This document shows, in pieces, positions 14,728 to 32,623 of a stretch of DNA of 64,000 nucleotides. The stretch is from an uncultured Sphingomonas sp. (GTDB lineage: Bacteria > Pseudomonadota > Alphaproteobacteria > Sphingomonadales > Sphingomonadaceae): assembly GCF_913774285.1 (NCBI RefSeq), contig NZ_CAJYHX010000008.1:1-64000 (forward strand). Direction: 5' to 3'. The translations under genes and the position numbers were made by a program. Below the pieces are notes generated by a model. It was not told the origin of the DNA. It did not search any database and worked only from the letters and a program-made list of their open reading frames with translations. Positions within the stretch are counted from its first letter, which is position 1, and the number at the start of each line of letters is the position of its first letter.

Positions 14728-16253
14728 CAGGCCGATCGCGCCATCCGCCGGGGCTCGCCGCCGAGATAGTCGGCAAGCCGCTCCGCAGTGCCTGGCGGCA
14801 CGTGCAGGCCCAGCTTGCTGCGGCGATAGAGGATGTCCTCGGCGGTCACCGCCCATTCGTTGGCGCGCAGATAATCGACTTCGCGCAGCGTCAGCCCACC
14901 GCCGAGATCGGCGCCCAGATCGAACGGCGTCATCGCATTGCCGAGCAGCGCCTCCACCCGCGTGCCATAGGCCCGCGCCAGCCGCCGCAGCAGCTCCGCG
15001 GGCATGCTCGGCCGCGCGTGCTGGAGATTGGCCACGAAGTGATCGAAATCGCCCTCGGGCAGGTCGCCGCCGGTCAGGACCGCGCCTGCGGTCCAGGCAC
15101 CCGTCGCCTGCGGGAAGAAGCGCGCCAGCTCGGCCATCGCGTGCTCGGCGAGTTTGCGGTACGTCGTGATCTTGCCGCCGAAGATACTGAGCATCGGTGC
15201 ACGCGCCTCATCGCCGTCGAGATCGAGCACATAGTCGCGCGTCACGGCAGAGGCATTGCCCGCCTTGTCGTCATAGAGCGGGCGGATACCGGCATAGCTC
15301 CACACCACGTCCTTCTCGGACGGCGGATCGGCGAAGTAGCGCGCGGCGGTATCGAGCAGGTAGCGGGTTTCCTCGGCACTGATATGCGCCTTGCCCGGCG
15401 GGCCGTCCCAAACCTGGTCGGTCGTCCCGATCAGCGTGCACTTACCCTCATAAGGGACGGTGAACACGATGCGGCGATCGGGGTTCTGCAACATGAAGGC
15501 ATGGTCGCCCGGATAGAGCTTCGGCACGACGAGGTGGCTGCCCTTGACCAGCCGCAGCCCGCGATCGGCGACCACGTCGGGCACGCGGCCCAGAACGTCC
15601 GCCACCCAGGGGCCCGCCGCATTGACCAGCGCCTTGGCGCACACCGTCCGCTCGCCGGCCTCGTCGGCGATGGTCGCGATCCATTCGCGCCCCTCGCGAC
15701 GCGCGCCCACCAGCGCGGTGCGGGTGCGGATGTCCGCACCCCGTTCCGCCGCATCCATCGCGTTGAGCACCACCAACCGGCTGTCTTCCACCCAGCAGTC
15801 CGAATAGACGAAGGCCTTGCCCTTGGCGGTCTTCAGGCCCCGTCCGAAAGGCGTGCGGGCAAGATTGATCGTGTCGGTGCCCGGCAGCTTCTTGCGCCCG
15901 CCGAGATGGTCGTAGAGAAACAGCCCCAGCCGCACCATCCAGGCCGGGCGCGGCGACTGGGTCTGCGGCAGGACGAAACGCAGCGGCCAGATGATGTGCG
16001 GCGCCATGCCCCACAGACGTTCGCGCTCGATCAGCGCCTCGCGCACCAGCCGGAACTCGCCATATTCGAGATAGCGCAGACCGCCATGGATCAGCTTGGT
16101 CGAAGCCGAGGAGGTGTGGCTGGCCAGGTCTTCCTTCTCGACCAGCAGCACCGACAGGCCTCGCCCGGCCGCGTCGCGCGCGATACCGGCACCGTTGATG
16201 CCGCCACCCACCACCAGAAGATCGATATGCGCGTCGGGTTGTGCCGCCGTCAT
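14727..16253 (-). CDS. glpD: Aerobic glycerol-3-phosphate dehydrogenase
   Basis: A 508-residue FAD enzyme that oxidises glycerol-3-phosphate to dihydroxyacetone phosphate at the inner membrane and passes electrons to quinone. The FAD-binding motif is VVGGGINGAGIARDAAGRG at the N-terminus, followed by SSASTKLIHGGLRYLE; VNAAGPWV and FGGKITTYRKLAEHA are family signatures. The ATG at 16253 is preferred because GAGG lies 6 nt upstream; other in-frame ATGs at 16265 and 16301 lack this. It is divergent from glpK across a short shared control region and overlaps glpR. Confidence 0.95.
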   Translation of the reverse strand: MTAAQPDAHIDLLVVGGGINGAGIARDAAGRGLSVLLVEKEDLASHTSSASTKLIHGGLRYLEYGEFRLVREALIERERLWGMAPHIIWPLRFVLPQTQSPRPAWMVRLGLFLYDHLGGRKKLPGTDTINLARTPFGRGLKTAKGKAFVYSDCWVEDSRLVVLNAMDAAERGADIRTRTALVGARREGREWIATIADEAGERTVCAKALVNAAGPWVADVLGRVPDVVADRGLRLVKGSHLVVPKLYPGDHAFMLQNPDRRIVFTVPYEGKCTLIGTTDQVWDGPPGKAHISAEETRYLLDTAARYFADPPSEKDVVWSYAGIRPLYDDKAGNASAVTRDYVLDLDGDEARAPMLSIFGGKITTYRKLAEHAMAELARFFPQATGAWTAGAVLTGGDLPEGDFDHFVANLQHARPSMPAELLRRLARAYGTRVEALLGNAMTPFDLGADLGGGLTLREVDYLRANEWAVTAEDILYRRSKLGLHVPPGTAERLADYLGGEPRRMARSA

Positions 16254-16366
16254 CTTTCGCCTCATGTTCGCTATTTTTCGTTTATAGCAGCAAGCGAACA
16301 CAAACGAAAGCGTTGACGCGCGAACGAAAATCTACGAGCGTCCGAACGAACATGGGAGAGGCTTTG
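16254..16366. promoter_or_regulatory. glpD-glpK divergent control region with GlpR-like motifs
   Basis: The gap holds several copies of a short motif in both orientations: TTCGTTT (16277-16283), GCGAACA (16294-16300), AAACGAAAG (16302-16310), GCGAACGAAAA (16320-16330) and CCGAACGAACA (16342-16352). DeoR-type GlpR proteins recognise TTCG/CGAA-rich repeats, so this cluster is a likely GlpR operator covering both promoters. The ribosome site GGGAGAGG of glpK lies at 16354-16361. Confidence 0.6.
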
Positions 16367-18900: not shown

Positions 18901-20358
18901 CTACAGCGTCAGCGCGAACTTCAGCCCGAGCACGCCGACATCCTTGGCGTTCTTCACGCCGCCCGGCTGGTGGATCCACTGGACATTGGGCTGCACTACC
19001 AGCCATTCGGTCGGCGAGACGCTGTAGTAGAGCTCCGCCGCATATTCCGCATCGCGCGCCGGCTTGCCCGCCAGGCGATCCGCAGTGTCGATCCGACCAT
19101 TCACATTGGTCCGCGCGACCGCAAGCCCGATCACGTCGCCCGGCAGGCTCGGCGCGAGCCCCTTGTAGAATAGCCCGACCGACACCTGGTTGTCGGTCAG
19201 CGACGTCGCGCGATCTGCGAAGGTGACATTGGCGAACATGCTGAAGCCGGTCAGCGAGCGCCCATCCTTCGAGGTGCCGGTCAGCTGCTGCTGGACGCTG
19301 GCGAATACGCCGTAGCGGCTCGAATGCTGGAGCGGCGCGAGGCCGGTCACCGCGCGCGGCTGGCGGTTGATGTCGAGCACCAGATCGTCGCCGTCCGCGG
19401 TCGAGACCCAGCCGCCCAGCTTGTACGAACCGACGCGCCCCTCGTCGCCACCACGCGTCCAGCCGATCTCGGCGGGCACCAGCACGCCGGTCGCGCCCTT
19501 GAAATGGCCGATGAAGAAGCTGCTCTCCAGGTTGCGCGGGTTCACCTCATAGGCGCCGCCCTGGACGTAGATGCCGGGCGCCACGTCGACATGGACGTTC
19601 GCGCCCCATTGGCTGACCGGCCAGTTGTACCAGTAATCGCCGACGAGATTGCCCGACTGCGCGCCGCAGAAGCTCAGATTCTGGAAATGGCAGGAGAAGA
19701 CCGCGAAATCCTCGCCCGGATTGGTGCGGCCCAGCTTCACTTCCACCTTGTCGCCCAGCTTCTGCTGAAGCCAGAGCTGGGTCACGCGTACGGTCTGGCC
19801 GCGGCCATAGACTTCCTGCACCTGCTGCAGCGCGCCGAGGCCGGCGGTGGTGGTCAGGTCGATGCCGCGCCGCCAGGTGACGGTGCCCTGCAGCGCCGCC
19901 CCACCCCAGCCGACCAGCTTGTCGAGGTCGAGCAGCGCGCCGACGTCGAACTGGCCGGTCTCGGCCACCAGGCTGCGATCGCCGCCGGTGAAGTTGTAGG
20001 CGGTTTCCGAGGCATAGCGCGCCGACAGGCCGATGCCACGCTCGCCCATGCGGGTGCGGATCTCCTGCCAGTCGCCGATCAGCCCCGGCGGCGGCGAACT
20101 CTGCGTATCACCGGCAAGAGACGAAGGCGACGGATCGCGCGGATGCAGCGCGTGGCTGCGGGCGCGGCGCTGGGTATCGGCGCGCGGGCCGGAACCGGCA
20201 TCTTCCTGCGTCGCGTCGGGCTTGGGCTTGTTGAGTTCGTCCGCTGGCGGCGGCGGAGCGCCGACGTCCACCTGCTGTGCAACCGCCGGCGCTACCGTGC
20301 CGAACGCCATGATTGCGAGCAGGGCCCCCTGCCCTACGCGCCAACTCCCACGCTTCAT
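18901..20358 (-). CDS. OprB-family carbohydrate-selective porin
   Basis: A 485-residue outer-membrane barrel with a signal peptide ending near AVAQQ, then a Pro-rich linker (about 25-90) and the OprB domain starting at GLIGDWQEIRTRMGERGIGLSARY. KLGRTNPGEDFA and WLVVQPNVQWIHQPGG are typical of the family. The start MKRGSWRVG at 20358 has AAGGAT upstream. Two Cys (FSCHFQNLSFCGAQ) could form a loop disulfide. It likely lets sugars cross the outer membrane. The AraC gene lies upstream on the same strand, but no direct operator is evident. Confidence 0.85.
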   Translation of the reverse strand: MKRGSWRVGQGALLAIMAFGTVAPAVAQQVDVGAPPPPADELNKPKPDATQEDAGSGPRADTQRRARSHALHPRDPSPSSLAGDTQSSPPPGLIGDWQEIRTRMGERGIGLSARYASETAYNFTGGDRSLVAETGQFDVGALLDLDKLVGWGGAALQGTVTWRRGIDLTTTAGLGALQQVQEVYGRGQTVRVTQLWLQQKLGDKVEVKLGRTNPGEDFAVFSCHFQNLSFCGAQSGNLVGDYWYNWPVSQWGANVHVDVAPGIYVQGGAYEVNPRNLESSFFIGHFKGATGVLVPAEIGWTRGGDEGRVGSYKLGGWVSTADGDDLVLDINRQPRAVTGLAPLQHSSRYGVFASVQQQLTGTSKDGRSLTGFSMFANVTFADRATSLTDNQVSVGLFYKGLAPSLPGDVIGLAVARTNVNGRIDTADRLAGKPARDAEYAAELYYSVSPTEWLVVQPNVQWIHQPGGVKNAKDVGVLGLKFALTL

Positions 20359-20523
20359 TGCATATCCTTTTATGTCGCGCCGCACCAAGCGCCGAGGGGC
20401 CATTTGGTTGCGTGGCATTGCAGGCCCGGCCAACAGGACCCGCGTTCCCCGCCGAATAGGGAGGCAACCCTCCAGCGCCTAGCCCCCTCGCGCAGAACCA
20501 TACGAACGGCTAGTGGCGCGGCG

Positions 20524-21603
20524 TCAGCCCGGGAGGCGTAGCGTCTCCATGGTGCGGATCCAGTGCGGCAGCAGCACGTCGCCCGCCCCGGCTTGGGGTG
20601 CCGCGAGCGGAATGTCCGCACCTGCCCGCGCCTCGCTGGGCGTGATTCCGAACGCCGCCTTGAACGCGCGCGAGAAGGTAGACCAGTCGCCAAAACCCCA
20701 GCCATAGGCGATCTCGGCGATCGACTTGCCGCGCTGTGCCGGATCGGCCAGGTCGCTCAGCACCCGTTCCAGCCGCTGCCGCCGAATGAAGTCGCCGATG
20801 CTGCCCAGCGGCGCGAAGGCACGGTAGAGCGACGCGCGCGACATGCCCATCGCCCGCGCCACCATGTCCGGCCCAAGCTCCGGATGCGCGAGGTTGGCCC
20901 GGATGAAGCGCTTGATCCGGAACAGCGCCGCCACCGCACCCGAAGCGCGGGGGCCGCCCTCCTGGGTGGTGGGCGCGATCAGCCCGCCCATCATCAACCC
21001 CGTCGCGCGCGCCACCGCCAGCGCATCGTCCGCGCCCGCCTGGGGCAGCCGCTCCACCAGCATCCGGGCATGTTCGCCCAGCAGCTGCGCCGCCAACGTC
21101 TCGCGGCGGAGCACCACCCCGTGCAGCCCGTCAAGGCGCGGCTCGTCCAGCCCCAACGCACCGTGGTGCACCACCATGCTGATATTCTCGCAGCCATCGG
21201 TGCGGGTGGCGAAGGGGCGGGTCATGTCGGCGATGCAGATGTCGCCGGGTCGGGTTACCGTGGCCTCGCCGTCGTGCAGCCGCACGTCGCCGCCGCGGGT
21301 GATGATCTGAACCAGCACCGCCTCGACGCCGGTCCGGGCCACCTTGCGGATGTCGCGGTCATAGTGGAACCCGGCGCCCCACATGCGCGAGCGGCCGATC
21401 AGCACCGGCCCGGCGTTGAACCCGTCGAGCCCTACGCTGAAGTCGCCGGACACCGCCTCACGCCGCGTGTCGAAGATCGGATCGACCGATTCGGCATAGG
21501 CGTCGAAGCGCAATTCGGGCGGCGCGTTCGAGACGTTGAAATATGGTACGCCTGGCGCCTCCGCCCGCACCCGCAAGTTCCGCTGTTCCTGCACCACCCC
21601 CAT
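20524..21603 (-). CDS. AraC-family transcriptional regulator
   Basis: A 359-residue activator. The N-terminal AraC-binding-like domain (about 30-200) includes PGDICIADMTRPF; the C-terminal double helix-turn-helix has MVARAMGMSRASLYRAF and IAEIAYGWGFGDWSTFSRAFKAAFGITPSEAR. It is on the same strand as the porin gene 165 bp downstream, so the porin is one candidate target. A 17-bp palindrome lies just upstream of its own start. Confidence 0.87.
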   Translation of the reverse strand: MGVVQEQRNLRVRAEAPGVPYFNVSNAPPELRFDAYAESVDPIFDTRREAVSGDFSVGLDGFNAGPVLIGRSRMWGAGFHYDRDIRKVARTGVEAVLVQIITRGGDVRLHDGEATVTRPGDICIADMTRPFATRTDGCENISMVVHHGALGLDEPRLDGLHGVVLRRETLAAQLLGEHARMLVERLPQAGADDALAVARATGLMMGGLIAPTTQEGGPRASGAVAALFRIKRFIRANLAHPELGPDMVARAMGMSRASLYRAFAPLGSIGDFIRRQRLERVLSDLADPAQRGKSIAEIAYGWGFGDWSTFSRAFKAAFGITPSEARAGADIPLAAPQAGAGDVLLPHWIRTMETLRLPG

Positions 21604-21618
21604 CTACCCCGTTTTTGT

Positions 21619-21635
21619 AACGCAAGCGTTGCGTT
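21619..21635. promoter_or_regulatory. Palindrome upstream of the AraC gene
   Basis: A perfect 7-bp inverted repeat AACGCAA / TTGCGTT with a GCG centre, 16 bp before the AraC start. The position suggests an autoregulatory operator; binding is not demonstrated. Confidence 0.4.
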
Positions 21636-21673
21636 TTCCACAGGATTGCCGTCCCAGCCGAGGACAGGGTGCG

Positions 21674-22600
21674 TTACGGGTCCGGACTTTCGGCCGTGAA
21701 GGGCGAGCAGCACGGCTTCGTCGCGGGCTTGAACTCCATCAATTCCACCCGCGTCCCGTCGGGATCGTAGAAGTTGGCTTGCCACTTGCCATCCAGGCCC
21801 ATTTGCGGGCCGTCATGCCGCGAGCTCAGCCGGTTCTCGCGGTAGAGCATGGTTACCGCCGCCTGCATGTTGACCACGCCGAGCGACAGATGATTGAGCA
21901 CGCCCAGCTGCCGCGCATCGACCTTGTCGGCCGACACGTCCGAGCCTTCGCCCACCATCATATATTCGAGCCAGTCACGCCCGTCGGGCAGCTGCTGCGA
22001 GACCCAGTCGACCTTGTCGTCGTGGAAGGCGCCGAACCAATAGGGGCGGAAGCCGAGCAGCGTGCGGTAGAAGCCGTCCTGCTTCGCGCGATCGTGCACC
22101 GCATGGCCGACATGGATGATCCGGCCGCTGATTGCGCCGTTCTCCGCCGTGGTGGCGCTGCTGCCCGGCTGGACGAACTGGACCGGGTTGCCCTCGGGAT
22201 CGTGGCCGCTGAACCATTGGTCGCCGCCTGCCCCGCGCTGCACCGGTGTAAGGTCACGGACGCCGTGGGCACTGAGCCAGGTTCGGAGCCGCGCGGCATC
22301 GGCGGTGACGTAGCCGACATGGGCGAGCATGCTCGGGCCATGATCCTTGGGCGCGGGCAGCACCTCGACGAACTGGCGCGGGCTGAAATAATAGCGGACG
22401 CCCGCCGGATCTTCCGGGTCGGCCCCCTTCCGCGCGCCGAGCACGACGCGGTAGAAATGATCGCTCGCCGCCATGTCGGTCGCATAGACCGCAAGGTGCG
22501 AAATGCCGGTGATCGGCGGCCGGCCCGCGTCCGGCGGCGCTGCGCCGATCATCGTCGCGGCAACCAGGCCGAGCGCGGTCAGCTTGCGGAACATCGGCAT
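21674..22600 (-). CDS. Exported two-module VOC (glyoxalase-fold) protein
   Basis: A 308-residue protein with a hydrophobic leader (MPMFRKLTALGLVAATMIGAA) suggesting export. Two tandem VOC modules follow: module 1 has SHLAVYATD and QFVEVLP, and module 2 has NHLSLGVVN and TRVELMEF, giving His/Glu metal-ligand candidates. HVGHAVHD and WLEYMMVG lie between. The ATG at 22600 has GGGAGAG upstream. VOC enzymes include dioxygenases, isomerases and glyoxalases. The substrate is unknown, and an exported member is less usual than a cytoplasmic one. Confidence 0.75.
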   Translation of the reverse strand: MPMFRKLTALGLVAATMIGAAPPDAGRPPITGISHLAVYATDMAASDHFYRVVLGARKGADPEDPAGVRYYFSPRQFVEVLPAPKDHGPSMLAHVGYVTADAARLRTWLSAHGVRDLTPVQRGAGGDQWFSGHDPEGNPVQFVQPGSSATTAENGAISGRIIHVGHAVHDRAKQDGFYRTLLGFRPYWFGAFHDDKVDWVSQQLPDGRDWLEYMMVGEGSDVSADKVDARQLGVLNHLSLGVVNMQAAVTMLYRENRLSSRHDGPQMGLDGKWQANFYDPDGTRVELMEFKPATKPCCSPFTAESPDP

Positions 22601-22667
22601 CGTGTCTCTCCCGGGCGGCGATGCTTTCGATCGCCTTTCCAGGAGCATAGCACGCCCGTGCCGCGTG

Positions 22668-23675
22668 TCACCGGGGGTTCGGCGCGGGCCCGGTGCTGGC
22701 GCGGCGGATCAGTTCATGGGCGAGCGTCAGCTGCCGCTCGATCGGCTCGATGCCGCGCAGGATGCCGACCAGCACCTCGACCGCGCGCCCGCCGATCATT
22801 CCCTTGGGCTGCGCGATGGTGGTGAGCGCCGGATGGAAGAAGCGCGCGAGCGGCAGGTCGTCGAAACCGATCACCGAGACGTCTCCCGGGCAGGACAGCC
22901 CCGCCGCCCCCACCGCGCTGATCGCGCCAAGCGCCATCTCGTCGCTGAAGCAGAACAGCGCGGTCACGCCTTCCGCGATCAGCGCGCGGGCAGCGCGGTG
23001 GGCGGAGTCGGCGCCATAGTCGCCTTCGCGCAGGTGCAGCCGGTCCTTGAGGCCGTGGCGATCGGCCGCGCGCAGCACGCCAGCCAAGCGGTCGCGGCTG
23101 ATCGGGCTGATCGGCGGTCCGGTGATGATGCCGATCGCGCGGTGGCCGAGCTCGACCAGATGCTCGATCGCGTCGGCACTCCCGGCCGCATTGTCGATAT
23201 GCACGCTCGGAACGCCGATCTCGGGGCTGTACTCGCAGCCGTTGACGATCGGGGCCGAGGCCCCTTCCCGGGCGACCAGCGCCTCTAAACTCGCCGGCAG
23301 TCGGTGCCCGAGGAACACCAGCCCGTCGACCTCGCGGCGCGACAGCATCTCGGCATATTGGTCCTCGACCTCGGGATCGTGCCGGGTATCCCCCAGCACC
23401 ACCGCATAGCCGGCGTCGCGCGCCGCTTCCTCCGCGCCGCGGATGACGCTGGCGAAGAAGGGGTTGGAGATATCCGGCACGGTCAGCAGGATCTTGGCGG
23501 CGCGCAGCGTACGCAGCGTCCGCGCCGCGACATTGGGCCGATAGTCGAGCGCCTCGACCACCTCCATCACCCGCGCCCGCGTCGCTTCCGCCACCCGCCC
23601 CGGCTGGCTGAGCACGCGCGACACCGTGGCGGTGGAAACGCCCGCGGCCGCGGCGACTTCGATAATCGTAGCCAT
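22668..23675 (-). CDS. LacI-family transcriptional regulator
   Basis: A 335-residue repressor. The N-terminal helix-turn-helix is IIEVAAAAGVSTATVSRVLS followed by the hinge helix (NVAARTLRTLR), then a periplasmic-binding-protein-like effector domain (from LLTVPDISNPFF, with VIGFDDLPLARFFHPALTTI). The start MATIIEVA at 23675 is the only one consistent with the family; the open frame to 24140 is overlap with the divergent transporter. It faces the nine-gene sugar operon across a 175-bp gap that contains a matching palindrome, so it almost certainly controls that operon. Confidence 0.92.
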   Translation of the reverse strand: MATIIEVAAAAGVSTATVSRVLSQPGRVAEATRARVMEVVEALDYRPNVAARTLRTLRAAKILLTVPDISNPFFASVIRGAEEAARDAGYAVVLGDTRHDPEVEDQYAEMLSRREVDGLVFLGHRLPASLEALVAREGASAPIVNGCEYSPEIGVPSVHIDNAAGSADAIEHLVELGHRAIGIITGPPISPISRDRLAGVLRAADRHGLKDRLHLREGDYGADSAHRAARALIAEGVTALFCFSDEMALGAISAVGAAGLSCPGDVSVIGFDDLPLARFFHPALTTIAQPKGMIGGRAVEVLVGILRGIEPIERQLTLAHELIRRASTGPAPNPR

Positions 23676-23720
23676 GCAGATATCTTTGTAGCGTGCGACG
23701 CGCCGTGTCGAGCCCCGCGA

Positions 23721-23736
23721 ATGTAATCCTTTACAT
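23721..23736. promoter_or_regulatory. Candidate LacI-type operator and promoter
   Basis: ATGTAA-TCCT-TTACAT is a perfect 6-bp inverted repeat with the even symmetry and size typical of LacI-family operators. TTTACA inside it could serve as a -35 box, with TAGGCT 17 nt later as a weak -10 for the operon, so a bound repressor would block transcription. It lies 46 bp from the regulator start and 115 bp from the transporter start. Confidence 0.6.
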
Positions 23737-23762
23737 CGTATCCGGCTCTGCATAGGCTGCGA

Positions 23763-23812
23763 TTCGAACAGCGGCAAAGCCGCATTGGTCGAAGAGCGGC
23801 ACAGCCGCGCGG
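23763..23812. repeat. Two tandem hairpin-forming repeats in the operon leader
   Basis: Two imperfect 25-bp units lie head to tail. Each contains a GCGGC-NNN-GCCGC hairpin (23771-23783 and 23796-23808) preceded by TTCGAA/GTCGAA. They fall in the probable 5' untranslated leader and could affect message stability or translation. Confidence 0.5.
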
Positions 23813-23850
23813 GGGAGAGGAAGCGCATGGTCGCTGCTGGAGGGATCACC

Positions 23851-25074
23851 ATGAACAGCACGCAGCCGGTATCGGGATTGCTCACGGGGCGGCTCAGCGC
23901 CTTGATGTTCATGCAGTTCTTCGTCTGGGGTGCATGGAACGTCACGCTGGGTCTGGTGATGCAGACCGTCGGCGTCGGCAGCCTGATCGCCAATGCCTTT
24001 TCGGTCGGCCCGATCGCCTCGATCGTCGGCTCGTTCCTGCTCGGCATGGCGGCTGCGCGATTCCTCAGCCCCAAGATGCTGATGGTGGTGCTCCACCTGG
24101 TCGGCGGCGTGCTGCTCTTCATCCTGCCGACGCTGCTCACCCCGGAGCACGGCGCCAGCTTCGTCTGGCTGCTGCTCGGCTACATGATCCTCTACATGCC
24201 GACCGTGGGCCTCGCGAACACCATCGCGCTCAAGAGCTTCGGCGAGCGCGTCGACCGCTTTCCCTTCGTCCGCGCCTTCGGCACGCTGGGCTGGATCGTC
24301 GCCGGGCTGATCATCGGCTGGGCGCACCTCTCCGCCAGCCCGCAGATCTTCCAGGTGGCGGGCGTCGTCTCGCTCGCGCTGGGTCTCTACAGCATCACCC
24401 TGCCCAATGTTCAGCCCGATGCGCCGCAGGGCAAGAGCCTGGTCGCCGAGGTGTTCTGCACCGAAGCCTTCGGGCTGATGCGCAACCGCTCCTTCCTGAT
24501 CTTCATCCTCTGCGCGACGCTGATCTCGATCCCGCTGGCGATGTACTACGCCTATGCCTCGCCGTACGTGGGCGCGGCGGGGATCGAGAATGTCGGCGGC
24601 ACGCTGGCGATCGGGCAGATGTCCGAGCTCGTCTTCATGTTCTCGATGCCCTGGCTCTATCGCCGCTTCGGGGTGAAGCCGCTGCTGCTGGTCGGCATGG
24701 TCGCCTGGGCGCTACGCTACGCGCTGTTCGCGATCGGCGATGGCGGCGCGGGGATCTGGGCGATCTATCTCGGCGTCGCGCTGCACGGCGTGTGCTACGA
24801 CTTCTTCTTCGTCGCCGGCGCCATCTACACCGGCACCATCGCGACGCCCAAGGGCGTCAACGCGCAGGCGCAGGGCATGCTGACGCTGTTCACCTACGGC
24901 GTGGGCATGCTGCTCGGCTCGCAGATCGGCGGCCTACTCTATGCGCAGCTGCCGGCCAATGCGACCGTCGCCGACTGGCACCATCTCTGGTGGTATCCTG
25001 CGATCGCCGCGGCGGTGATTGCGCTCCTCTTCCAGTTCACCTTCAAGAACAACCGTAACGAGGTGCAGGCATGA
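23851..25074 (+). CDS. MFS transporter, nucleoside/sugar:H+ symporter (NupG/XapB)-like
   Basis: A 407-residue inner-membrane permease with 12 predicted helices. MQFFVWGAWNVTLG near the N-terminus, GYMILYMPTVGLANTIAL and the loop RVDRFPFVRAFGTLGWIVAGL resemble the nucleoside:H+ symporter group. Several transporters of this group sit in sugar operons and carry sugars rather than nucleosides. The ATG at 23851 has GGAGGG upstream; earlier ATGs lie in the leader. It is the first gene of the operon and overlaps the next gene by ATGA, so it probably imports the product made in the periplasm. Confidence 0.82.
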   Translation: MNSTQPVSGLLTGRLSALMFMQFFVWGAWNVTLGLVMQTVGVGSLIANAFSVGPIASIVGSFLLGMAAARFLSPKMLMVVLHLVGGVLLFILPTLLTPEHGASFVWLLLGYMILYMPTVGLANTIALKSFGERVDRFPFVRAFGTLGWIVAGLIIGWAHLSASPQIFQVAGVVSLALGLYSITLPNVQPDAPQGKSLVAEVFCTEAFGLMRNRSFLIFILCATLISIPLAMYYAYASPYVGAAGIENVGGTLAIGQMSELVFMFSMPWLYRRFGVKPLLLVGMVAWALRYALFAIGDGGAGIWAIYLGVALHGVCYDFFFVAGAIYTGTIATPKGVNAQAQGMLTLFTYGVGMLLGSQIGGLLYAQLPANATVADWHHLWWYPAIAAAVIALLFQFTFKNNRNEVQA

Positions 25075-26135
25075 CCGCGATGCAGGGTCCGGGCATCTTC
25101 CTCGCCCAGTTTCTCGGCGACACCGCGCCGTTCGACACGCTCGACCATATGGCGGAGTGGGCCGCGGGGCTCGGCTATGTCGGGGTGCAGATCCCGTGCG
25201 ATCCGCGGCTGATCGATCTGAAACAGGCGGCCGAAAGCCAAGCCTATTGCGACGATCTCCGCGCCCGGCTCGACAAGTTCGGCATCCAGCCGACCGAGCT
25301 TTCGACCCACCTGCAGGGCCAGCTGGTCGCGGTGCACCCGGCCTACGACACGCTGTTCGACGGCTTCGCGCCGGCAGAGCTGCACGGCAAGCCCGCCGAG
25401 CGCCAGGCCTGGGCGGTCGAGCAGGTCAAGCTCGCCGCGCGCGCGAGCGGCCGGCTGGGGCTGAAGGCACATGCCACCTTCTCCGGCGCGCTGGCCTGGC
25501 CCTATGTCTATCCCTGGCCGCAGCGCCCCGCGGGCCTCGTCGAGGAAGCCTTCGCCGAACTCGCCCGCCGCTGGCTGCCGATCCTCGACGTGTTCGAGGA
25601 AGCCGGCGTCGACTGCGCCTATGAGATCCATCCCGGCGAGGACATTCATGACGGCGCTACGTGGGAGCGTTTCCTCGAGGCGGTGAACCATCACCCCCGC
25701 GCGCGCATCCTGTTCGATCCGTCGCATTATGTGCTGCAGCAGCTCGACTATCTCGACTTCATCGATCGCTATCACGATCGGATCTCGTGCTTCCATGTGA
25801 AGGACGCCGAGTTCAACCCGACCGGGCGCAGCGGTGTCTATGGCGGATACGAGAGCTGGGTGAACCGCGCCGGCCGCTTCCGCTCGACCGGCGACGGCCA
25901 GGTCGATTTCGTCGGCATCTTCAGCAAGCTCGCCCAGTATGGCTATCGCGGCTGGGCCGTGATCGAGTGGGAATGCGCGCTGAAGAACAGCGAGGACGGC
26001 GCCCGCGAAGGCGCGCCCTTCATCCGCGACCATATCATCCGCGTCACTGAGCGCGCCTTTGACGACTTCGCCTCGAGCGGCGTCGACAAGGCGGCGATCC
26101 GCAATCTGCTCGGGTTGGGAAGCCGCGACGCATGA
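25071..26135 (+). CDS. Cytoplasmic sugar phosphate isomerase/epimerase-type TIM barrel
   Basis: A 354-residue AP-endonuclease-2-fold protein with no signal peptide. Likely metal ligands appear in YEIHPGED (Glu), LFDPSHYV (Asp/His), CFHVKDAEF (His) and VIEWEC (Glu). The family includes ketose epimerases, inositol-pathway enzymes and the metal-dependent lyases and hydratases of 3-keto-sugar metabolism. It overlaps the transporter and the Gfo/Idh/MocA gene by ATGA at both ends. It probably works with the next gene product on the imported sugar; the exact reaction is unproven. Confidence 0.82.
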   Translation: MTAMQGPGIFLAQFLGDTAPFDTLDHMAEWAAGLGYVGVQIPCDPRLIDLKQAAESQAYCDDLRARLDKFGIQPTELSTHLQGQLVAVHPAYDTLFDGFAPAELHGKPAERQAWAVEQVKLAARASGRLGLKAHATFSGALAWPYVYPWPQRPAGLVEEAFAELARRWLPILDVFEEAGVDCAYEIHPGEDIHDGATWERFLEAVNHHPRARILFDPSHYVLQQLDYLDFIDRYHDRISCFHVKDAEFNPTGRSGVYGGYESWVNRAGRFRSTGDGQVDFVGIFSKLAQYGYRGWAVIEWECALKNSEDGAREGAPFIRDHIIRVTERAFDDFASSGVDKAAIRNLLGLGSRDA

Positions 26136-27277
26136 TCCGGCACCCGCTGAAACTCGGCATGGTCGGCGGCGGCGAAGGCGCGTTCATCGGTGCCGTGCAC
26201 CGCATGGCGGCAGCGCTCGACGGCGACTGGCGGCTGACCGCCGGCGCGTTCAGCACCGATGCCGGCAAGAACGCGCGCACCGGCGACCTGCTCGGGCTCG
26301 ATCCGGCGCGGGTCTATGCGACCTATGATGCGATGCTCGCTTGCGAGGCCGCGCTGCCGGAAAACGAGCGCATCGACGCGGTGGCGATCGTCACCCCGAA
26401 CCACCTCCACGCCCCCGTCGCCATCGCCGCGCTGAACGCGGCCTTCCACGTTTTCTGCGAGAAGCCGATGGCGATGAACAGCGACGAGGCCCGCGCCATC
26501 GCCGCCGCTGCGCGAGACAGCGGCAAGCAGTTCGCCCTCGCCTTCACCTATAGCGGCTATCCGCTGGTCGAGGAGGCGCGGGCTCGCGTGGCCCGCGGCG
26601 ATTTCGGCGCGATCCGGCTGGTGCAGGTGGAATATATCCAGGGCTGGCTGAGCGGTTCGCTCGACACCGAAGGCAACAAGCAGGCCGAGTGGCGCACCGA
26701 TCCTGCGCGCGCCGGTCTCGGCGGCTGCCTCGGCGACATCGGCACCCACGCTTTCCACCTGGCCGAGCTGGTCTCCGGCCTGCGCGTCGAGACGCTTTCC
26801 GCCGAACTCGCCACCCATGTCCCGGGCCGGCGCCTGGATGACGACGTCAGCGCGCTGCTCCGCTTCGAGGGCGGCGCACGCGGCACGCTCAAGGCGACCC
26901 AAGTTGCCGCCGGCGAGGAAAACGGCCTCCGCCTGCGCATCCATGGCGAACGCGGCGGCCTCGAATGGGCGCAGATGGAGCCCAACACGCTCACCTTGCG
27001 CTGGCTCGATCGGCCGGCGGAGATTCTGCGTGCAGGTGGCCCCGGCCTTGGCCCGAGCACCACGCCTTTGCTGCGTACACCTGCCGGACATCCGGAAGGC
27101 TATATCGAAGCGTTTGCAAACCTTTATCGTGGATTCGCGCGCATTGTTCGCGGCGATTCGGCCCAAGTGCCGGGCGTCGCGGACGGGCTGCGGACGATGG
27201 CCTTTGTCGAGGCGATGATCGCCAATGCCAAGGCCGACACCAAATGGACCGAGATCGTAACCGGAGAGCGTAGATGA
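26132..27277 (+). CDS. Gfo/Idh/MocA-family NAD(P)-dependent sugar oxidoreductase
   Basis: A 381-residue cytoplasmic enzyme. The Rossmann start is KLGMVGGGEGAFIGAVH, and the family motif FCEKPMAMNSDEA supplies the catalytic-lysine region; GDIGTHAFHLAELV is the substrate-side motif. In a 3-keto-sugar pathway such an enzyme would reduce the C3 ketone back to the hydroxyl, or interconvert epimers. It is coupled to both neighbours by ATGA overlaps. Substrate inferred from context only. Confidence 0.87.
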   Translation: MIRHPLKLGMVGGGEGAFIGAVHRMAAALDGDWRLTAGAFSTDAGKNARTGDLLGLDPARVYATYDAMLACEAALPENERIDAVAIVTPNHLHAPVAIAALNAAFHVFCEKPMAMNSDEARAIAAAARDSGKQFALAFTYSGYPLVEEARARVARGDFGAIRLVQVEYIQGWLSGSLDTEGNKQAEWRTDPARAGLGGCLGDIGTHAFHLAELVSGLRVETLSAELATHVPGRRLDDDVSALLRFEGGARGTLKATQVAAGEENGLRLRIHGERGGLEWAQMEPNTLTLRWLDRPAEILRAGGPGLGPSTTPLLRTPAGHPEGYIEAFANLYRGFARIVRGDSAQVPGVADGLRTMAFVEAMIANAKADTKWTEIVTGERR

Positions 27278-27639
27278 AGTTCTGGATGGCACTTGCCGCA
27301 ACCGCGGCGCTGACGGCGAGCGCGCCCGCCTGGGCGCAGACCGCCGCCCCGCCCGCCTTTGCCGCGTGCAAGGCGTGCCACACCGTGGAGAAGGGCGGCA
27401 AGAACGGCGTCGGCCCCAACCTCAACGGCGTGGTCGGCCGCCCGGCGGCCTCGGCGCCCGGCTTCAACTATTCGACGGCGCTCAAGAATTCCAAGCTGAC
27501 CTGGGACCCGGCGACGCTCGACCAGTTCATCGCCGCGCCGATGAAGAAGGTGCCGGGCACCCGCATGCCGATCGGCATGGCCGATCCCGCCAAGCGCCAG
27601 CAGATCATCGCGTACCTCAAGGCGATGAGCGGCAAATGA
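27274..27639 (+). CDS. Class I cytochrome c, periplasmic
   Basis: A 121-residue protein with a Sec signal (cut near AWAQT). The haem-binding motif is CKACH and the distal Met ligand is probably in GTRMPIGM. Its place in an operon with a GMC flavoprotein and a subunit-3 protein suggests that it takes electrons from that dehydrogenase and passes them to the respiratory chain, like the cytochrome subunit of FAD-dependent glucose/glucoside dehydrogenases. It overlaps both neighbours by ATGA. Confidence 0.9.
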   Translation: MKFWMALAATAALTASAPAWAQTAAPPAFAACKACHTVEKGGKNGVGPNLNGVVGRPAASAPGFNYSTALKNSKLTWDPATLDQFIAAPMKKVPGTRMPIGMADPAKRQQIIAYLKAMSGK

Positions 27640-28538
27640 GCGTGACGCGCCGCACCGTATTGGCCGGCGCGACGGCGATGCCCCTGGTGGCATCCTCGGC
27701 GCGGGGTCAGTCGAATGCGGCGCGTTTCTCGCTCCATTTCGCGCCGCACGAGGGCAGCTTCGCCAGCCGGGGCAACCGGCTGGAGCAGATCGCCTTCGCC
27801 GCCGACCAGGGTTTCACCGCCTGGGAGGATAACGAGGCCGCCACCCGCCCGGTCGACGAGCAGGTAGCGATGGCCAAGGCGCTGTCCAGCCGCGGCATGA
27901 CGATGGGCGTGTTCGTCGCCTCGATGCCCAAATGGGGGAAGTCGCGCCCGATCCTGGGCGCGAACGACGGTGCCGAGCGCGAGGCGTTCCTGGCCGATAT
28001 CCGCGCGTCAATCGACGTCGCCAAGCGGCTGAACGCCACGCGAATGACGGTGGTGACCGGCTTCCTGGATCCCAAGGTGCCGCTCGACATCCAGACCGCG
28101 CGCGTGATCGACCTGATGCGCCGCGCAGGCGATCTCGTCGCGCCGCACGGGATGGCGCTGGTGATGGAGCCGCTCAACACCCGCACCAACCATCCGGGCG
28201 TCTACATGCAGAGCATCGCGCAGGGCTATGCAGTGGCGCGCGGGGCGAATAGCCCCGGGGTGAAGATCCTCGCCGATCTCTATCACGAGCAGATCCAGTC
28301 CGGAAACCTGATCCCGGCGCTCGACACCTGCTGGAGCGAGATCGGCTATATCCAGTTCGGCGACAATCCCGGCCGCAACGAGCCGGGCACCGGCGAAATC
28401 AATTTCACCAATATCGTCCGCTGGCTGCGCGAGCGGAAATATGCCGGCACGATCGGCATGGAACATGGCAATTCGGTCAAAGGGCGCGCGGGCGAGGAGC
28501 GGCTGATCGCCGCCTATCGCACGATCGACGCCGTCTGA
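27636..28538 (+). CDS. Tat-exported hydroxypyruvate-isomerase-like TIM barrel
   Basis: A 300-residue AP-endonuclease-2-fold protein with a twin-arginine signal (MSVTRRTVLAGATAMPL, cut near SSARG), hence periplasmic. Metal-ligand candidates are in LVMEPLN (Glu), ILADLYHEQ (Asp/His), YIQFGDNPGRNEPG and GMEHGNS. The start at 27636 overlaps the cytochrome stop by ATGA; the open frame upstream is only overlap with the cytochrome gene. Its export with the dehydrogenase parts suggests that it acts on the oxidised sugar before import. Confidence 0.82.
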   Translation: MSVTRRTVLAGATAMPLVASSARGQSNAARFSLHFAPHEGSFASRGNRLEQIAFAADQGFTAWEDNEAATRPVDEQVAMAKALSSRGMTMGVFVASMPKWGKSRPILGANDGAEREAFLADIRASIDVAKRLNATRMTVVTGFLDPKVPLDIQTARVIDLMRRAGDLVAPHGMALVMEPLNTRTNHPGVYMQSIAQGYAVARGANSPGVKILADLYHEQIQSGNLIPALDTCWSEIGYIQFGDNPGRNEPGTGEINFTNIVRWLRERKYAGTIGMEHGNSVKGRAGEERLIAAYRTIDAV

Positions 28539-28552
28539 GGGGAGAGAGAAGC

Positions 28553-29383
28553 ATGTCGAGACGCACACAGGTGCTGCTCGCGGGTCTGGCGGTGCTTGCC
28601 GCCACGCCCGCCGCGGCACAGGAAAAGCCGGGGTTCAAGGATACCCCGATCCTGCCGGGCGGCGGGAACTGGCACGTCCATGATTCAGACCGCCCCTACC
28701 CGACCGTCGTCACCCCCGCAGCGCAGCCCGGCGGCGCGCCCTCGGACGCCATCGTGCTGTTCGACGGCCGCTCGCTCGACGCCTGGACCGCGCAGCGCAA
28801 GCTGTGGCCGGTGGCGAACGGCGTGCTCACCGTGCCGACCCGCGCGAGCAGCGGCGGCGAGAATGCGCTGATCACCAAGCAGAATTTCGGCGACGTCCAG
28901 CTCCACCTGGAGTTCCGCTCGCCCAATCCGCCGACCAAGAGCTCGCAGGATCGCGGCAACAGCGGCATCTGGTTCATGCAGCGCTACGAGATCCAGATTC
29001 TCGACGGCTATCAGAACCCCACTTATGCCGACGGCACGGTGGGCGGGGTCTATGGCTGGAAGCCCCCGCTGGTGAACCCGTCGCGCAAGCCCGGCGAGTG
29101 GCAGAGCTACGACATCGTCTTCGAGCGCCCCCGCTTCGCCGCCGACGGCAAGCTGCTGCGCCCGGCCTATATCACCGCCTTCCTCAACGGCGTGCTGGTG
29201 CAGAACCACCAGGCGATGCTCGGCACCACCAACTGGCGTCATGTCGCCGAATATACCGCGCATGCCGATGCCCTGCCGATTCAGCTGCAGGACCATGACT
29301 CGCCGGTGTCATTCCGCAACATCTGGGTGCGCCCGCTGCCAGAAAGCGCAATCGCGCAGGACCTTCCGGGAGACCGCAAATGA
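28553..29383 (+). CDS. Exported DUF1080 protein (3-keto-glycoside-cleaving family)
   Basis: A 276-residue protein with a Sec signal peptide (cut near PAAAQE) and a concanavalin-like DUF1080 domain: IVLFDGRSLDAW, FGDVQLHLEFR, GNSGIWFMQRYEIQILD, and PIQLQDHDSPVSFRNIWVR at the end. DUF1080 is now known to include enzymes that act on 3-keto-disaccharides or glycosides. A GGGGAGAG ribosome site precedes the ATG after a 14-bp gap. In this operon it is the best candidate for splitting the 3-keto-glycoside made by the GMC enzyme. Confidence 0.85.
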   Translation: MSRRTQVLLAGLAVLAATPAAAQEKPGFKDTPILPGGGNWHVHDSDRPYPTVVTPAAQPGGAPSDAIVLFDGRSLDAWTAQRKLWPVANGVLTVPTRASSGGENALITKQNFGDVQLHLEFRSPNPPTKSSQDRGNSGIWFMQRYEIQILDGYQNPTYADGTVGGVYGWKPPLVNPSRKPGEWQSYDIVFERPRFAADGKLLRPAYITAFLNGVLVQNHQAMLGTTNWRHVAEYTAHADALPIQLQDHDSPVSFRNIWVRPLPESAIAQDLPGDRK

Positions 29384-29943
29384 ACATCGACCGTCGCGCC
29401 GCGCTCACCGGCGTGCTCGCCCTGTTCGGGGCGGGCGTGTTCGCCCCCATCGCCCGCGCCGCGCAGATGACCGCGACGCAGATGATCCAGGAGGGACCGC
29501 CCAGCGTCGCCGTGTTCAGCCCCGCCCAGCGCGCGCTGATGACCGCGCTCAGCGAGCGGGTGATCCCCACGACTGACACGCCGGGCGCGATCGCCGCGGG
29601 CGTGCCCGCCTTCATCGAAAAGCTGCTCGCAGATTGGGCGATGCCAGACGATCGCGTGCCGATCGTCGCCGGGCTCGACGCGATCGAGGCGCGCTCGCAG
29701 CAGGATTACAAGGTCTCGGCCGCCAAGGCGACGCCGGCGCAGCAGGACGCGCTGCTCACCCTGGCGATGAACGGCCAGATCGCGGGCGGCAAGACCTTCT
29801 TCGAGGCGTTCCGCCAGCTGGTGATCACGGGGTACTATACCTCGGAGATCGGCATCACCCAGGAACGCGAATATCTGCCGGTGCCGGGCGAATATAACGG
29901 CGCCTTCCCCTATTCCCAGGTCAACAAGGTGTACAGCGCATGA
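29380..29943 (+). CDS. Gluconate 2-dehydrogenase subunit 3-type protein
   Basis: A 187-residue small subunit with a twin-arginine-like signal (NIDRRAALTGVLALFGAGVF, cut near IARAA). The body contains SPAQRALMTALSERVIPTTDTPGA and FFEAFRQLVITGYYTSEIG, hallmarks of the family. In related FAD dehydrogenases this subunit carries the Tat signal for the whole complex and helps the large subunit mature. The GMC gene two positions downstream lacks a signal, which fits that role. It overlaps neighbours on both sides by ATGA. Confidence 0.87.
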   Translation: MNIDRRAALTGVLALFGAGVFAPIARAAQMTATQMIQEGPPSVAVFSPAQRALMTALSERVIPTTDTPGAIAAGVPAFIEKLLADWAMPDDRVPIVAGLDAIEARSQQDYKVSAAKATPAQQDALLTLAMNGQIAGGKTFFEAFRQLVITGYYTSEIGITQEREYLPVPGEYNGAFPYSQVNKVYSA

Positions 29944-30785
29944 TGATCACCCGTCGTACCCTGCTCGCCGGTGCCGGCGGCGTCACCGCCCTCGCGCTGA
30001 TGGATCGCCTGATCCCGCAGGCCTTCGCCGCGCAGATCCCCGCGGTCGGCATCCAGCTCTACACCGTCCGCGACATCTTCCAGAAGGATCCGGTCGGCAC
30101 ACTCAATGCGATCGCCAAGATCGGTTATCGCGAGATCGAGTTCGGCGGGGGCGGCTATGACAGCATGGACCCGGCGATGCTGCGCGCCACGATGGACAAG
30201 GCAGGGCTTCGCTGCCCGTCGCTCCACATCGGCTATGACGCGCTGCTCGGCCAGTTCGACAAGTCGGTGGCGATGGCCCGCACCCTCGGCGCCAAGACGG
30301 TAATCCTGCCCTACATGACCGACGAGCACCGCACCGAGGCGGGCTGGAACGCCGCGCTGCCGAATTTCAGCAAGTTCGCCCGCGACCTCAAGAAGGCCGG
30401 CTTCGACTTCGCCTATCACAACCATGATTTCGAGTTCACCAACAAGCCTGGCGGCGTGAGCCTATACGACCGGTTCCTCAAGGAAACCGACCCCGCGCTG
30501 GTGAAGGTGGAGCTCGACCTCTACTGGGCCAAGCGTGCAGGCCAGGATCTGGGCGCGCTGATCGACCGGCTCGGCAACCGGCTCTATTCCTACCACGTCA
30601 AGGACATGCGCCCCGATGGCAAGATGACCGCGGTGGGCACCGGCACGATCGACTTCGCAGCGCTGTTCAAGCGTCCGTCCAGCGCGCATGTCCGCCACTT
30701 CTATGTCGAGAATGACGAGGCGCCCGCGCCCTATCTTCCGGACATCACCACCAGCTTCAAGACGCTGCAGGCGCTGCGCTTCTAA
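29940..30785 (+). CDS. Second Tat-exported sugar isomerase/epimerase-type TIM barrel
   Basis: A 281-residue protein with a twin-arginine signal (MITRRTLLAGAGGVTAL, cut near AFAAQ). AVGIQLYTVRD, YREIEFGG, FAYHNHDFEF, LVKVELDLYWAKRAG, YHVKDM and YVENDEA give the usual His/Glu/Asp metal ligands of the AP-endonuclease-2 fold. It is the third TIM barrel of the operon and the second predicted periplasmic one. The start could be 29940 or the next ATG at 29943. It may be a lyase, hydratase or epimerase partner of the DUF1080 enzyme. Confidence 0.83.
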   Translation: MMITRRTLLAGAGGVTALALMDRLIPQAFAAQIPAVGIQLYTVRDIFQKDPVGTLNAIAKIGYREIEFGGGGYDSMDPAMLRATMDKAGLRCPSLHIGYDALLGQFDKSVAMARTLGAKTVILPYMTDEHRTEAGWNAALPNFSKFARDLKKAGFDFAYHNHDFEFTNKPGGVSLYDRFLKETDPALVKVELDLYWAKRAGQDLGALIDRLGNRLYSYHVKDMRPDGKMTAVGTGTIDFAALFKRPSSAHVRHFYVENDEAPAPYLPDITTSFKTLQALRF

Positions 30786-30817
30786 ACCAACAACACTCCC
30801 TGGGAGAGGGACACAAA

Positions 30818-32491
30818 ATGGCTGCAACCAACAGGTTCGATGCGATCGTCATCGGCTCCGGCGTAAGCGGCGGCTTCGCTGCCAAGGAACTGACCCAAAA
30901 GGGCCTCCGCGTGCTGATGCTCGATCGCGGCCGCATGGTCGAGCATGGCGAGGACTATCCGTATGACGGCAAGCCCGCCTATGAGGTGCCCGCGCACAAC
31001 ATCATGCCCAAGCCGCTGCAGGAGCGCGATTATTTCATCGCCAAGCGCGGCTATGTGCAGCCCAGCAGCATGGGCTTCTACAATAACGACCGCATGAACC
31101 CCTATGCCTTCGACGAGGGCAGCAAATTCTACTGGATCCGCCCCGGCGCGGTCGGCGGCAAGTCGCTGATCTGGGGCCGGTGGAGCTTCCGCTGGGCGCC
31201 CGAGGATTTCGAGGCGAACAAGCGCGAGGGCGTGGATGGCGCCTGGCCGATCGGCTATGACGACATCGCGCCGTGGTACGCCAAGGTCGAGGATTATATC
31301 GGCGTCTCGGGCTCGCGCGAGAACCTGCCCTATCTACCCGACAGCAACTTCCAGCCGCCGATGCCGATGAACGTCGCCGAGAAGTGGCTGAAGGAACGGC
31401 TGGAGTCCAAGTTCCCCGGCCGCAAGCTGATCAACACCCGTCTGTCCAACATGACCGAGGACAAGCCGGACCAGGGCCGCACCAAGTGCCAGTTCCGCAA
31501 CCAGTGCGGCAATGGCTGCTCGTTCGGCGCCTATTTCTCGACCCAGGCGGTCACCCTCCCCGCTGCGCGCGCGACAGGCAAGCTGACGCTCCAGTCGGAC
31601 GCGGTGGTGACCAACATCGAATATGACGCGGCCAAGAAGCGCGTCACCGGCGTGCGCTATGTCGATGCCAAGACCGGCCAGGCGCAGGTGGTGAACGCCG
31701 ATCTCGTCTTCCTCTGCGCCTCGGCGATGGGATCGAACCAAATCCTGCTCAACTCGCGCGCGCCGGGCAGCGAGCGCAGCCATTTCGACAGCAGCGGCAC
31801 GCTGGGCCGCTATGTCATGGACCATATCTTCCGCGTCGGCATCGACGGGGAGATTCCGGGCATGACCGACCTGATCGAATATGGCCGGCGCCCCGGCGGC
31901 GTCTATATCCCCCGCTTCCGCAACATCGGCGGCGAGGAAGGCGTCGGCTTCAAGCGCGGCTATGGCTATCAGGGCAGCGCCTGGCGCCAGCCGGCGGGCC
32001 CGGTCGGCTTCGGTGCCGAGATGAAGCACGGCATGCGCCGCTACGGCCCCTGGCGGTTCAGCATGGGCGCGTTCGGCGAGTGCCTGCCCTACAAGGACAA
32101 CCGCGTCTCGCTCCACCCCAGCAAGGTCGATCGCTTCGGGGTGCCGCTGATGCGCTTCGACGTGACCTTCCGCGAGAACGAGCTGAAGCTGATCGCCGAC
32201 GCCAAGGTGCAGGGCGAGGCGATGCTGCGCGCAGCCGGCTTGCAGAACGTGACGAGCAACGAGGGCGAGCATGTCCCCGGCGACGCCATCCACGAAATGG
32301 GCGGCGCGCGCATGGGCGCGGACCCGCGCACTTCGGTGCTCAACGGCTTCAGCCAGGCGCACGACGCCCCCAACCTCTACGTCACCGACGGCGCCCAGAT
32401 GGCCTCGGCCTCCTGCGTCAATCCGTCGCTGACCTTCATGGCGCTGACGATGCGCGCCGCGGACCATGCGGTGAAGCAGCTGCGCGGGTGA
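30818..32491 (+). CDS. GMC flavoprotein, catalytic subunit of a sugar/glucoside 3-dehydrogenase-type enzyme
   Basis: A 557-residue FAD oxidoreductase. The FAD motif is IVIGSGVSGGFAAKEL at the N-terminus, and GAVGGKSLIWGRWSFRW follows. The C-terminal catalytic pair fits His492 (IHEMGGARMG) and Asn535 (SCVNPSLTF), 43 residues apart as usual. Cys224, Cys230 and Cys234 form a cluster resembling the iron-sulfur site of bacterial FAD glucose dehydrogenases. No signal peptide is present, so export probably depends on the subunit-3 partner. A GGGAGAGGG ribosome site precedes the ATG. It would oxidise a sugar hydroxyl, probably C3, and feed electrons to the operon cytochrome. Confidence 0.88.
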   Translation: MAATNRFDAIVIGSGVSGGFAAKELTQKGLRVLMLDRGRMVEHGEDYPYDGKPAYEVPAHNIMPKPLQERDYFIAKRGYVQPSSMGFYNNDRMNPYAFDEGSKFYWIRPGAVGGKSLIWGRWSFRWAPEDFEANKREGVDGAWPIGYDDIAPWYAKVEDYIGVSGSRENLPYLPDSNFQPPMPMNVAEKWLKERLESKFPGRKLINTRLSNMTEDKPDQGRTKCQFRNQCGNGCSFGAYFSTQAVTLPAARATGKLTLQSDAVVTNIEYDAAKKRVTGVRYVDAKTGQAQVVNADLVFLCASAMGSNQILLNSRAPGSERSHFDSSGTLGRYVMDHIFRVGIDGEIPGMTDLIEYGRRPGGVYIPRFRNIGGEEGVGFKRGYGYQGSAWRQPAGPVGFGAEMKHGMRRYGPWRFSMGAFGECLPYKDNRVSLHPSKVDRFGVPLMRFDVTFRENELKLIADAKVQGEAMLRAAGLQNVTSNEGEHVPGDAIHEMGGARMGADPRTSVLNGFSQAHDAPNLYVTDGAQMASASCVNPSLTFMALTMRAADHAVKQLRG

Positions 32492-32548: not shown

Positions 32549-32623
32549 TGGCTGGGGCGGGAGGATTCGAACCTCCGAATGACGGTACCAAAAACCGTTG
32601 CCTTACCACTTGGCGACGCCCCA
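32549..32623 (-). tRNA. tRNA-Gln (TTG)
   Basis: 75 nt including an encoded CCA. The minus strand folds with acceptor TGGGGCG / CGCCCCA, anticodon loop TTTTGGT (anticodon TTG) on an ACGGT/ACCGT stem, and a T-arm GGAGGTTCGAATCCTCC. It matches bacterial tRNA-Gln closely. Confidence 0.95.

Follow-up and report, generated by a model that had tools for sequence, protein, structure and literature searches.

Organisation of the locus

The DNA considered here is a stretch of 64,000 nucleotides from an uncultured Sphingomonas sp. (contig NZ_CAJYHX010000008.1, positions 1 to 64,000), referred to below as the window, in which nine consecutive genes on the + strand (23851-32491), divergent from a LacI-family regulator gene, probably encode a route for the non-hydrolytic breakdown of glycosides. 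A preliminary description of the window had reported this arrangement and had named the protein families involved; the gene listing bears out the former, and the main Pfam family of each operon gene scored above its cut-off, the order being Nuc_H_symport, AP_endonuc_2 (TIM1), GFO_IDH_MocA, Cytochrom_C, AP_endonuc_2 (TIM2), 3keto-disac_hyd, Gluconate_2-dh3, AP_endonuc_2 (TIM3) and GMC. The grouping is not due to chance, because the gene set recurs in relatives. The features are as follows.

22668..23675, - strand: LacI-family regulator gene, 335 amino acids, predicted repressor (PF00356 and Peripla_BP_3)
23722..23735, no strand assigned: predicted LacI operator, TGTAATCCTTTACA, a conserved palindrome between the LacI and MFS genes
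23851..25074, + strand: MFS importer, NupG-like (Nuc_H_symport; PF03825, 287 bits), predicted to take up the sugar product of cleavage
25071..26135, + strand: TIM1, predicted cytoplasmic 2-hydroxy-3-keto-glucal hydratase (604 bits to 8ro4)
26132..27277, + strand: Gfo/Idh/MocA oxidoreductase (Gfo), predicted cytoplasmic 3-keto-sugar reductase (PF01408 and relatives)
27274..27639, + strand: small mono-haem cytochrome c with a signal peptide, predicted electron acceptor (PF00034)
27636..28538, + strand: TIM2, barrel exported by twin-arginine translocation (Tat), of the hydroxypyruvate/2-oxo-tetronate isomerase and ketose epimerase type (NCBIfam matches below cut-off; PDB matches)
28553..29383, + strand: DUF1080 / 3-keto-disaccharide hydrolase family protein with a signal peptide, predicted second cleavage enzyme (PF06439, 147 bits)
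29380..29943, + strand: Gluconate_2-dh3 subunit 3 (hitchhiker) with a Tat signal, predicted carrier of GMC across the membrane (PF13618, 125 bits)
29940..30785, + strand: TIM3, Tat-exported, predicted 3-keto-glycoside beta-eliminase (1,2-lyase), from its likeness to AtOGE (8bvk)
30818..32491, + strand: GMC flavoprotein catalytic subunit, predicted glycoside 3-dehydrogenase (PF00732/PF05199)

Two details of the preliminary description need correction. Six of the eight junctions within the operon, rather than seven, are 4-bp ATGA overlaps, the remaining two being gaps of 14 bp (TIM2/DUF1080) and 32 bp (TIM3/GMC), and the start given for the operon, 23675, is the start codon of the LacI gene. The first operon gene, that for the MFS protein, begins with an ATG at 23851, preceded by GGAGGG, though a start at 23827 is also possible.

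Predicted functions of the gene products

The assignment of three barrels to the AP-endonuclease-2 type stands as regards family, but they are not of one kind: TIM1 resembles a hydratase, TIM3 resembles eliminases and TIM2 resembles isomerases and epimerases. Both sequence and model predict TIM3 to be a 3-keto-glycoside beta-eliminase that releases the aglycone and a glycal. In a sequence alignment it keeps all eight of the metal-site and base residues of AtOGE (Glu39, His66, His132, His134, Glu161, Asp163, His189 and Glu233 in AtOGE numbering), and these are near-invariant in 90 TIM3 locus sequences, among which one genome stretch is included twice (L137, L174). A single-sequence model of TIM3 fits AtOGE best, and its closest fold relatives include characterised lyases.

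TIM1 aligns with 8ro4 ("2-hydroxy-3-keto-glucal hydratase") ungapped and end to end over residues 2-349, with a score of 604 bits, and the same activity is predicted for it. The adjoining Gfo protein scored 350 bits against 3v5n ("Oxidoreductase"), and the NCBIfam model BT_2158_fam matched it weakly (33.5 of 750 bits). The two genes are adjacent in 31 of the 32 fetched alphaproteobacterial TIM1 loci (L144-L175, from 30 genomes; the TIM1-matching genomes G012 and G325 are covered as L105 and L104). Three very small alphaproteobacterial genomes of about 1.4 Mb (G030, G259 and G337, loci L160, L170 and L171) retain the TIM1-Gfo pair, and no match to GMC, subunit 3 or TIM3 was found within the 20-kb stretch around it. 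The importer scored 280 bits against the NCBIfam nucleoside permease, below the cut-off of 446.

The two other candidates for action on the keto-sugar are probably accessory. The TIM2 model (pLDDT 76) is closest to 3ngf and 1k77, followed by psicose epimerases and YcjR (6wn6); no eliminase was present among the 50 structural matches listed, which does not exclude one. An exported keto-sugar isomerase or epimerase is the predicted function, and two loci (L079 and L086) keep TIM3 with TIM2 missing. The DUF1080 protein belongs to PF06439, now named 3keto-disac_hyd in Pfam, and scored 190 bits against 4qhz ("putative glycosyl hydrolase"); it would act as a second cleavage enzyme, on other 3-keto-glycosides.

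The GMC protein has as its best solved relatives in a PDB search the catalytic subunits of fructose and glucose dehydrogenases, and it is 99% identical to the GMC protein of Sphingomonas trueperi. Its N-terminus, MAATNRFDAIVIGSG, runs straight into the Rossmann motif and has no signal peptide of its own. It carries a C-X5-C-X3-C motif of the iron-sulphur (Fe-S) type, C224-C230-C234, kept in 94 of 94 GMC homologues scored, and a His492/Asn535 pair. According to passages of a study of BcGDH, that enzyme has Cys212, 218 and 222 as cluster ligands together with a His/Asn pair, its small subunit acts as a hitchhiker and its electron-transfer subunit is a three-haem cytochrome c (PMC6719666). The protein encoded here is thus like the BcGDH/FDH type in possessing both the cysteine motif and the His/Asn pair, and the layout of a small subunit with a Tat signal and a signal-free catalytic subunit is matched too. 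The operon cytochrome has only one CxxCH motif in its 121 residues, at position 32, so a description of the three proteins as parts of a multi-haem complex of the BcGDH type was rejected.

Conservation, distribution and export signals

Genome contigs were searched with the GMC protein, and from the 226 relatives recovered the best 80 were kept (80-99% identical, nearly all titled Sphingomonas); these are close relatives, since they were picked by similarity to GMC. All loci were titled Sphingomonas, Sphingopyxis or Sphingomonadales except L035 ("uncultured bacterium"), L048 ("Microvirga") and L053 ("Bacillus"), where the operons are of the same type as the others. The gene string ran exactly from LacI to GMC, with no further match in the stretch, in 36 of the 80. 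With five loci that had less than 8.5 kb upstream left out of the counts, GMC (the query), subunit 3 and TIM3 were present in 75 of 75, and TIM1, Gfo, the cytochrome and TIM2 in 73 each. DUF1080 was found in 69 and was absent from six, the former count including four loci (L039, L078, L081 and L083) with a displaced paralogue only, of 46-48% identity; the idea that it is the indispensable cleaver was rejected on account of the six absences. The MFS gene was present in 62 and LacI in 60, some of the latter being other LacI genes (32-35% identical) located after GMC. There is a second arrangement without this MFS, and in the annotated plasmid copy of S. parapaucimobilis another MFS gene lies between TIM1 and TIM2. 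Locus L086 holds only LacI, MFS, TIM1, Gfo, cytochrome, subunit 3, TIM3 and GMC, that is, one gene per step of the route proposed below.

The operon is patchy within the genus, the subunit 3 gene occurring in 5 of 12 same-genus relatives. Of 385 genomes sampled across the class, 6 had a close GMC match and 33 a TIM1 match (both at E <= 1e-60), and 17 had a TIM3 match (E <= 1e-12).

Signal peptides in the 80 loci were called with a crude pattern, and N-termini outside them were judged by eye. The Tat pattern was found in 80 of 80 TIM3, 76 of 76 TIM2 and 78 of 79 subunit 3 sequences scored, and a signal in 69 of 72 DUF1080 proteins; none of 74 TIM1 relatives had an export signal. Pattern calls for GMC ("Sec" in 78/80, "Tat" in 2/80) were discarded because the Rossmann start causes this protein to be miscalled as signal-bearing, and those for LacI (40/61), MFS (22/62) and Gfo ("Tat" in 3/74) were discarded on account of the crudeness of the pattern. 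Plasmid loci of X. sacchari and Ketogulonicigenium, the latter with an ABC importer, also have TIM3 with a signal peptide and TIM1 without one. Where a TIM3 homologue was present (17 genomes), it is signal-free in 10, each with a Gfo match in the fetched stretch, and exported in 7; subunit 3 was found in 5 of the 7 as against 1 of the 10 (Fisher p 0.035, kinship ignored).

The proposed route and its alternatives

The most probable interpretation, though one held with some reserve, is a two-compartment route in which a glycoside is oxidised at C3 in the periplasm and cleaved there by TIM3, and the resulting glycal is imported, hydrated and reduced. GMC would be exported by means of the subunit 3 Tat signal, and the periplasmic FAD/Fe-S dehydrogenase would oxidise the glycoside, likely at C3, passing electrons to the small cytochrome c. 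Exported TIM3 would then eliminate the aglycone to give 2-hydroxy-3-keto-glucal, the MFS protein may carry the glycal (or a 3-keto-sugar) inward, cytoplasmic TIM1 would hydrate the glycal and cytoplasmic Gfo would reduce the 3-keto-sugar. By analogy with Caulobacter, the leading guesses for the substrate are a beta-glucoside or a beta-galactoside, for instance salicin or lactose. The preliminary description had proposed a 3-keto pathway, with oxidation and cleavage outside and the end steps inside. Both the pathway class and the split between compartments are supported by the likeness of the barrels to solved structures of a hydratase and of eliminases, by the signal peptides and by conservation.

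A further elaboration goes beyond this route and is offered tentatively, being somewhat doubtful as a whole: the reactive glycal would itself be the transported nutrient, passing through the NupG-like MFS, the lyase would have been relocated to the periplasm together with the GMC dehydrogenase, the TIM1-Gfo pair remaining in the cytoplasm, and TIM2 would be a new exported keto-sugar epimerase that widens the range of substrates.

Several observations weigh against the two-compartment route. The GMC sequence does not reveal whether oxidation is at C3, a position suggested only by the operon partners, and GMC homologues of 43-50% identity occur without any barrels nearby. GMC and subunit 3 stand without barrels in four 20-kb stretches (L099, L101, L103 and L106), the GMC proteins of L099 and L106 being even 62% and 72% identical; an Alteromonas plasmid GMC adjoins a TonB receptor and a feruloyl esterase with no barrels nearby, and a Haliscomenobacter plasmid GMC likewise lacks barrels nearby and has other neighbours. 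GMC alone is therefore no marker of this route. (A Rhizobium plasmid has a more distant GMC, of 33% identity, in the company of LacI, one barrel and an ABC importer.) The operon cytochrome has one haem, compared with three in the electron-transfer subunit of BcGDH, the importer belongs to the nucleoside-permease family, and the stretches of L018 and L031 are without TIM1, Gfo and the cytochrome. As to TIM3, the model is weak (single-sequence, pLDDT 62), its top Foldseek match is the uncharacterised 3obe, and AtOGE Asn52 aligns with Arg82 of TIM3, with gaps close by in the alignment; in the relevant passages of the AtOGE study this residue, contributed by the partner subunit, activates the base in simulations (PMC10628242); it is not claimed to define the family. 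The association of exported TIM3 with subunit 3 is imperfect, since two of the seven genomes with exported TIM3 are without it and one of the ten with cytosolic TIM3 has it. Moreover, the AtOGE barrel begins within about 6-12 residues, so that this enzyme appears cytoplasmic although it is next to GlycDH; a lyase need not, then, follow its dehydrogenase out, and A. tumefaciens is a counter-example to the association.

The alternative that survives best, though it is unlikely, makes DUF1080 the main cleaver, with periplasmic hydrolysis to a free sugar and a 3-keto-sugar, import of the latter by the MFS protein and TIM3 and TIM2 as side isomerases. The Pfam name of PF06439 is in its favour, as is the C. 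crescentus DUF1080 protein CCNA_01705, which is important for growth on lactose and is proposed, in the part of the study drawn on, to be a 3'-ketolactose hydrolase (PMC9007349). However, DUF1080 is lacking or represented only by a displaced paralogue in the ten loci mentioned above, whereas TIM3 was found in every locus counted; TIM3 retains the eight eliminase residues, and there would be no call for a glycal hydratase such as TIM1 unless a glycal were formed.

A different class of substrate, nucleosides or inositol-like cyclitols, with GMC oxidising another position, is improbable. The importer lies in the Nuc_H_symport family, the best model for LacI is CytR and there are weak IolE matches of TIM1 and TIM3, but the CytR and nucleoside permease scores (275 of 436 and 280 of 446) are well below their cut-offs, those for IolE (70 and 51 of 290 for TIM1 and TIM3) are far below, and both barrels fit the glycal hydratase and eliminase structures better; such a route was rejected as first choice because of these family scores. 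That elimination falls chiefly to TIM2, with TIM3 no more than an isomerase, is scarcely credible, for although TIM2 is also Tat-exported and nearly as conserved, it groups with hydroxypyruvate isomerases and ketose epimerases by sequence and by model, and is dispensed with in the two loci noted above where TIM3 is kept.

Regulation and neighbouring genes

The best NCBIfam match of the LacI protein is CytR. The palindrome TGTAA-N4-TTACA was found in the gap between LacI and MFS in 48 of the 48 relatives with the divergent pair, and a search of the 4.28-Mb genome for the operator sequence, with at most one mismatch, gave a single site. A generic promoter scan found none, and a generic terminator scan likewise found none. 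The right half of the palindrome, TTTACA, could serve as a -35 hexamer, the spacing TTTACA-N16-18-TAnnnT being seen in 33 of 49 sequences. LacI would repress the operon from the palindrome, and repression by blocking of the promoter is plausible because the right half sits 16-18 bases from TAnnnT.

Directly after the operon and convergent to it is a tRNA-Gln gene (32549-32623, - strand). On the other side, adjoining LacI, 18901-22648 (-) encodes an OprB carbohydrate-selective porin, an AraC-family regulator and a double-glyoxalase protein, and 5249-16301 (-) is likely another sugar cluster, with two TonB-dependent receptors, a GH31 glycosidase, an MFS protein, a DeoR regulator and a glycerophosphate-oxidase-like FAD protein. 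Elsewhere in the window a DUF1800 gene adjoins a DUF1501 gene (46531-49686, +), and 55129-63451 (-), within a stretch where G+C is 61-65%, encodes a Schlafen AlbA_2 protein and a type I restriction HsdR-like protein. Elsewhere in the same genome (locus L109, C19:180001-200000) one open frame with two DUF1080 domains lies near Gfo/Idh/MocA proteins, two of which have Tat-like N-termini; these sequences suggest a second, Gfo-type periplasmic 3-keto system.

Comparison with known systems

No paper describing the sphingomonad operon was found in the open-licence literature, which is weak evidence. The suggestion in the preliminary description that the gene content is undescribed is not supported, as the lactose locus of Caulobacter has nearly the same kinds of gene and a plasmid of X. 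sacchari has counterparts by annotation. LacA, LacB and LacC of Caulobacter we take to be the GMC, subunit-3 and cytochrome proteins. No named C. crescentus locus was present among the best 80 of the 226 GMC relatives, and the likeness is by gene kind only: a three-component periplasmic dehydrogenase, a signal-bearing DUF1080 protein, a transporter, epimerases and a reductase. In the passages drawn on, the LacABC dehydrogenase of the C. crescentus locus is accompanied by DUF1080, a transporter, a sugar reductase and two sugar epimerases, and cleavage is proposed to be periplasmic; the transporter, the epimerases and the reductase are important and the fate of the keto-sugar is left open (PMC9007349). 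The locus described here has three barrels rather than two epimerases, and no lyase or hydratase is named in those passages.

The oxidation-elimination-hydration-reduction route of the GlycDH/AtOGE/AtHYD/Gfo operon of A. tumefaciens, as set out in passages of PMC10628242, is the same four-step route as that proposed here, with TIM3 resembling AtOGE (8bvk) and TIM1 the solved hydratase 8ro4. AtOGE appears cytoplasmic whereas TIM3 has a Tat signal, and the cytochrome c, DUF1080, TIM2 and the NupG-like MFS are extra in comparison with the operon as given in those passages (PMC10628242). The 3-keto-beta-glucopyranoside-1,2-lyases (by PDB title) 8tcd, 8tcr and 8tct of gut Bacteroides and Alistipes have the same fold as TIM3. 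In gut Bacteroides BT2158 is called, in the part of the source used, a periplasmic glycoside 3-dehydrogenase (PMC11300592), whereas the predicted oxidant here is a GMC/Fe-S/hitchhiker enzyme; in passages of another study deletion of BT2157 or BT2158 left growth on raffinose-family sugars unimpaired (PMC11501099), which advises caution on necessity.

The plasmid of X. sacchari R1 (NZ_CP010410.1, L113) has a counterpart of all ten genes by annotation, including LacI and a nucleoside permease. Identities are 71% for TIM1, 49% for LacI, 47% for GMC and DUF1080 and 43% for MFS, and are weaker for Gfo (35%), TIM3 (30%) and a TIM2-like barrel (28% over 104 residues), the cytochrome being assigned by annotation only; the genes form divergent groups, unlike the single-direction operon here.

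The operon is real, conserved and of a known kind, and the division of labour among its barrels is clearer than in the Caulobacter account or the preliminary description. What is fresh is the claim that elimination would take place outside, with the glycal as the species crossing the membrane. If the Caulobacter lactose locus matches, an exported lyase, import of the glycal and a cytoplasmic hydratase and reductase would fill the keto-sugar step left open there, and would show how sphingomonads may use glycosides without classical glycosidases.

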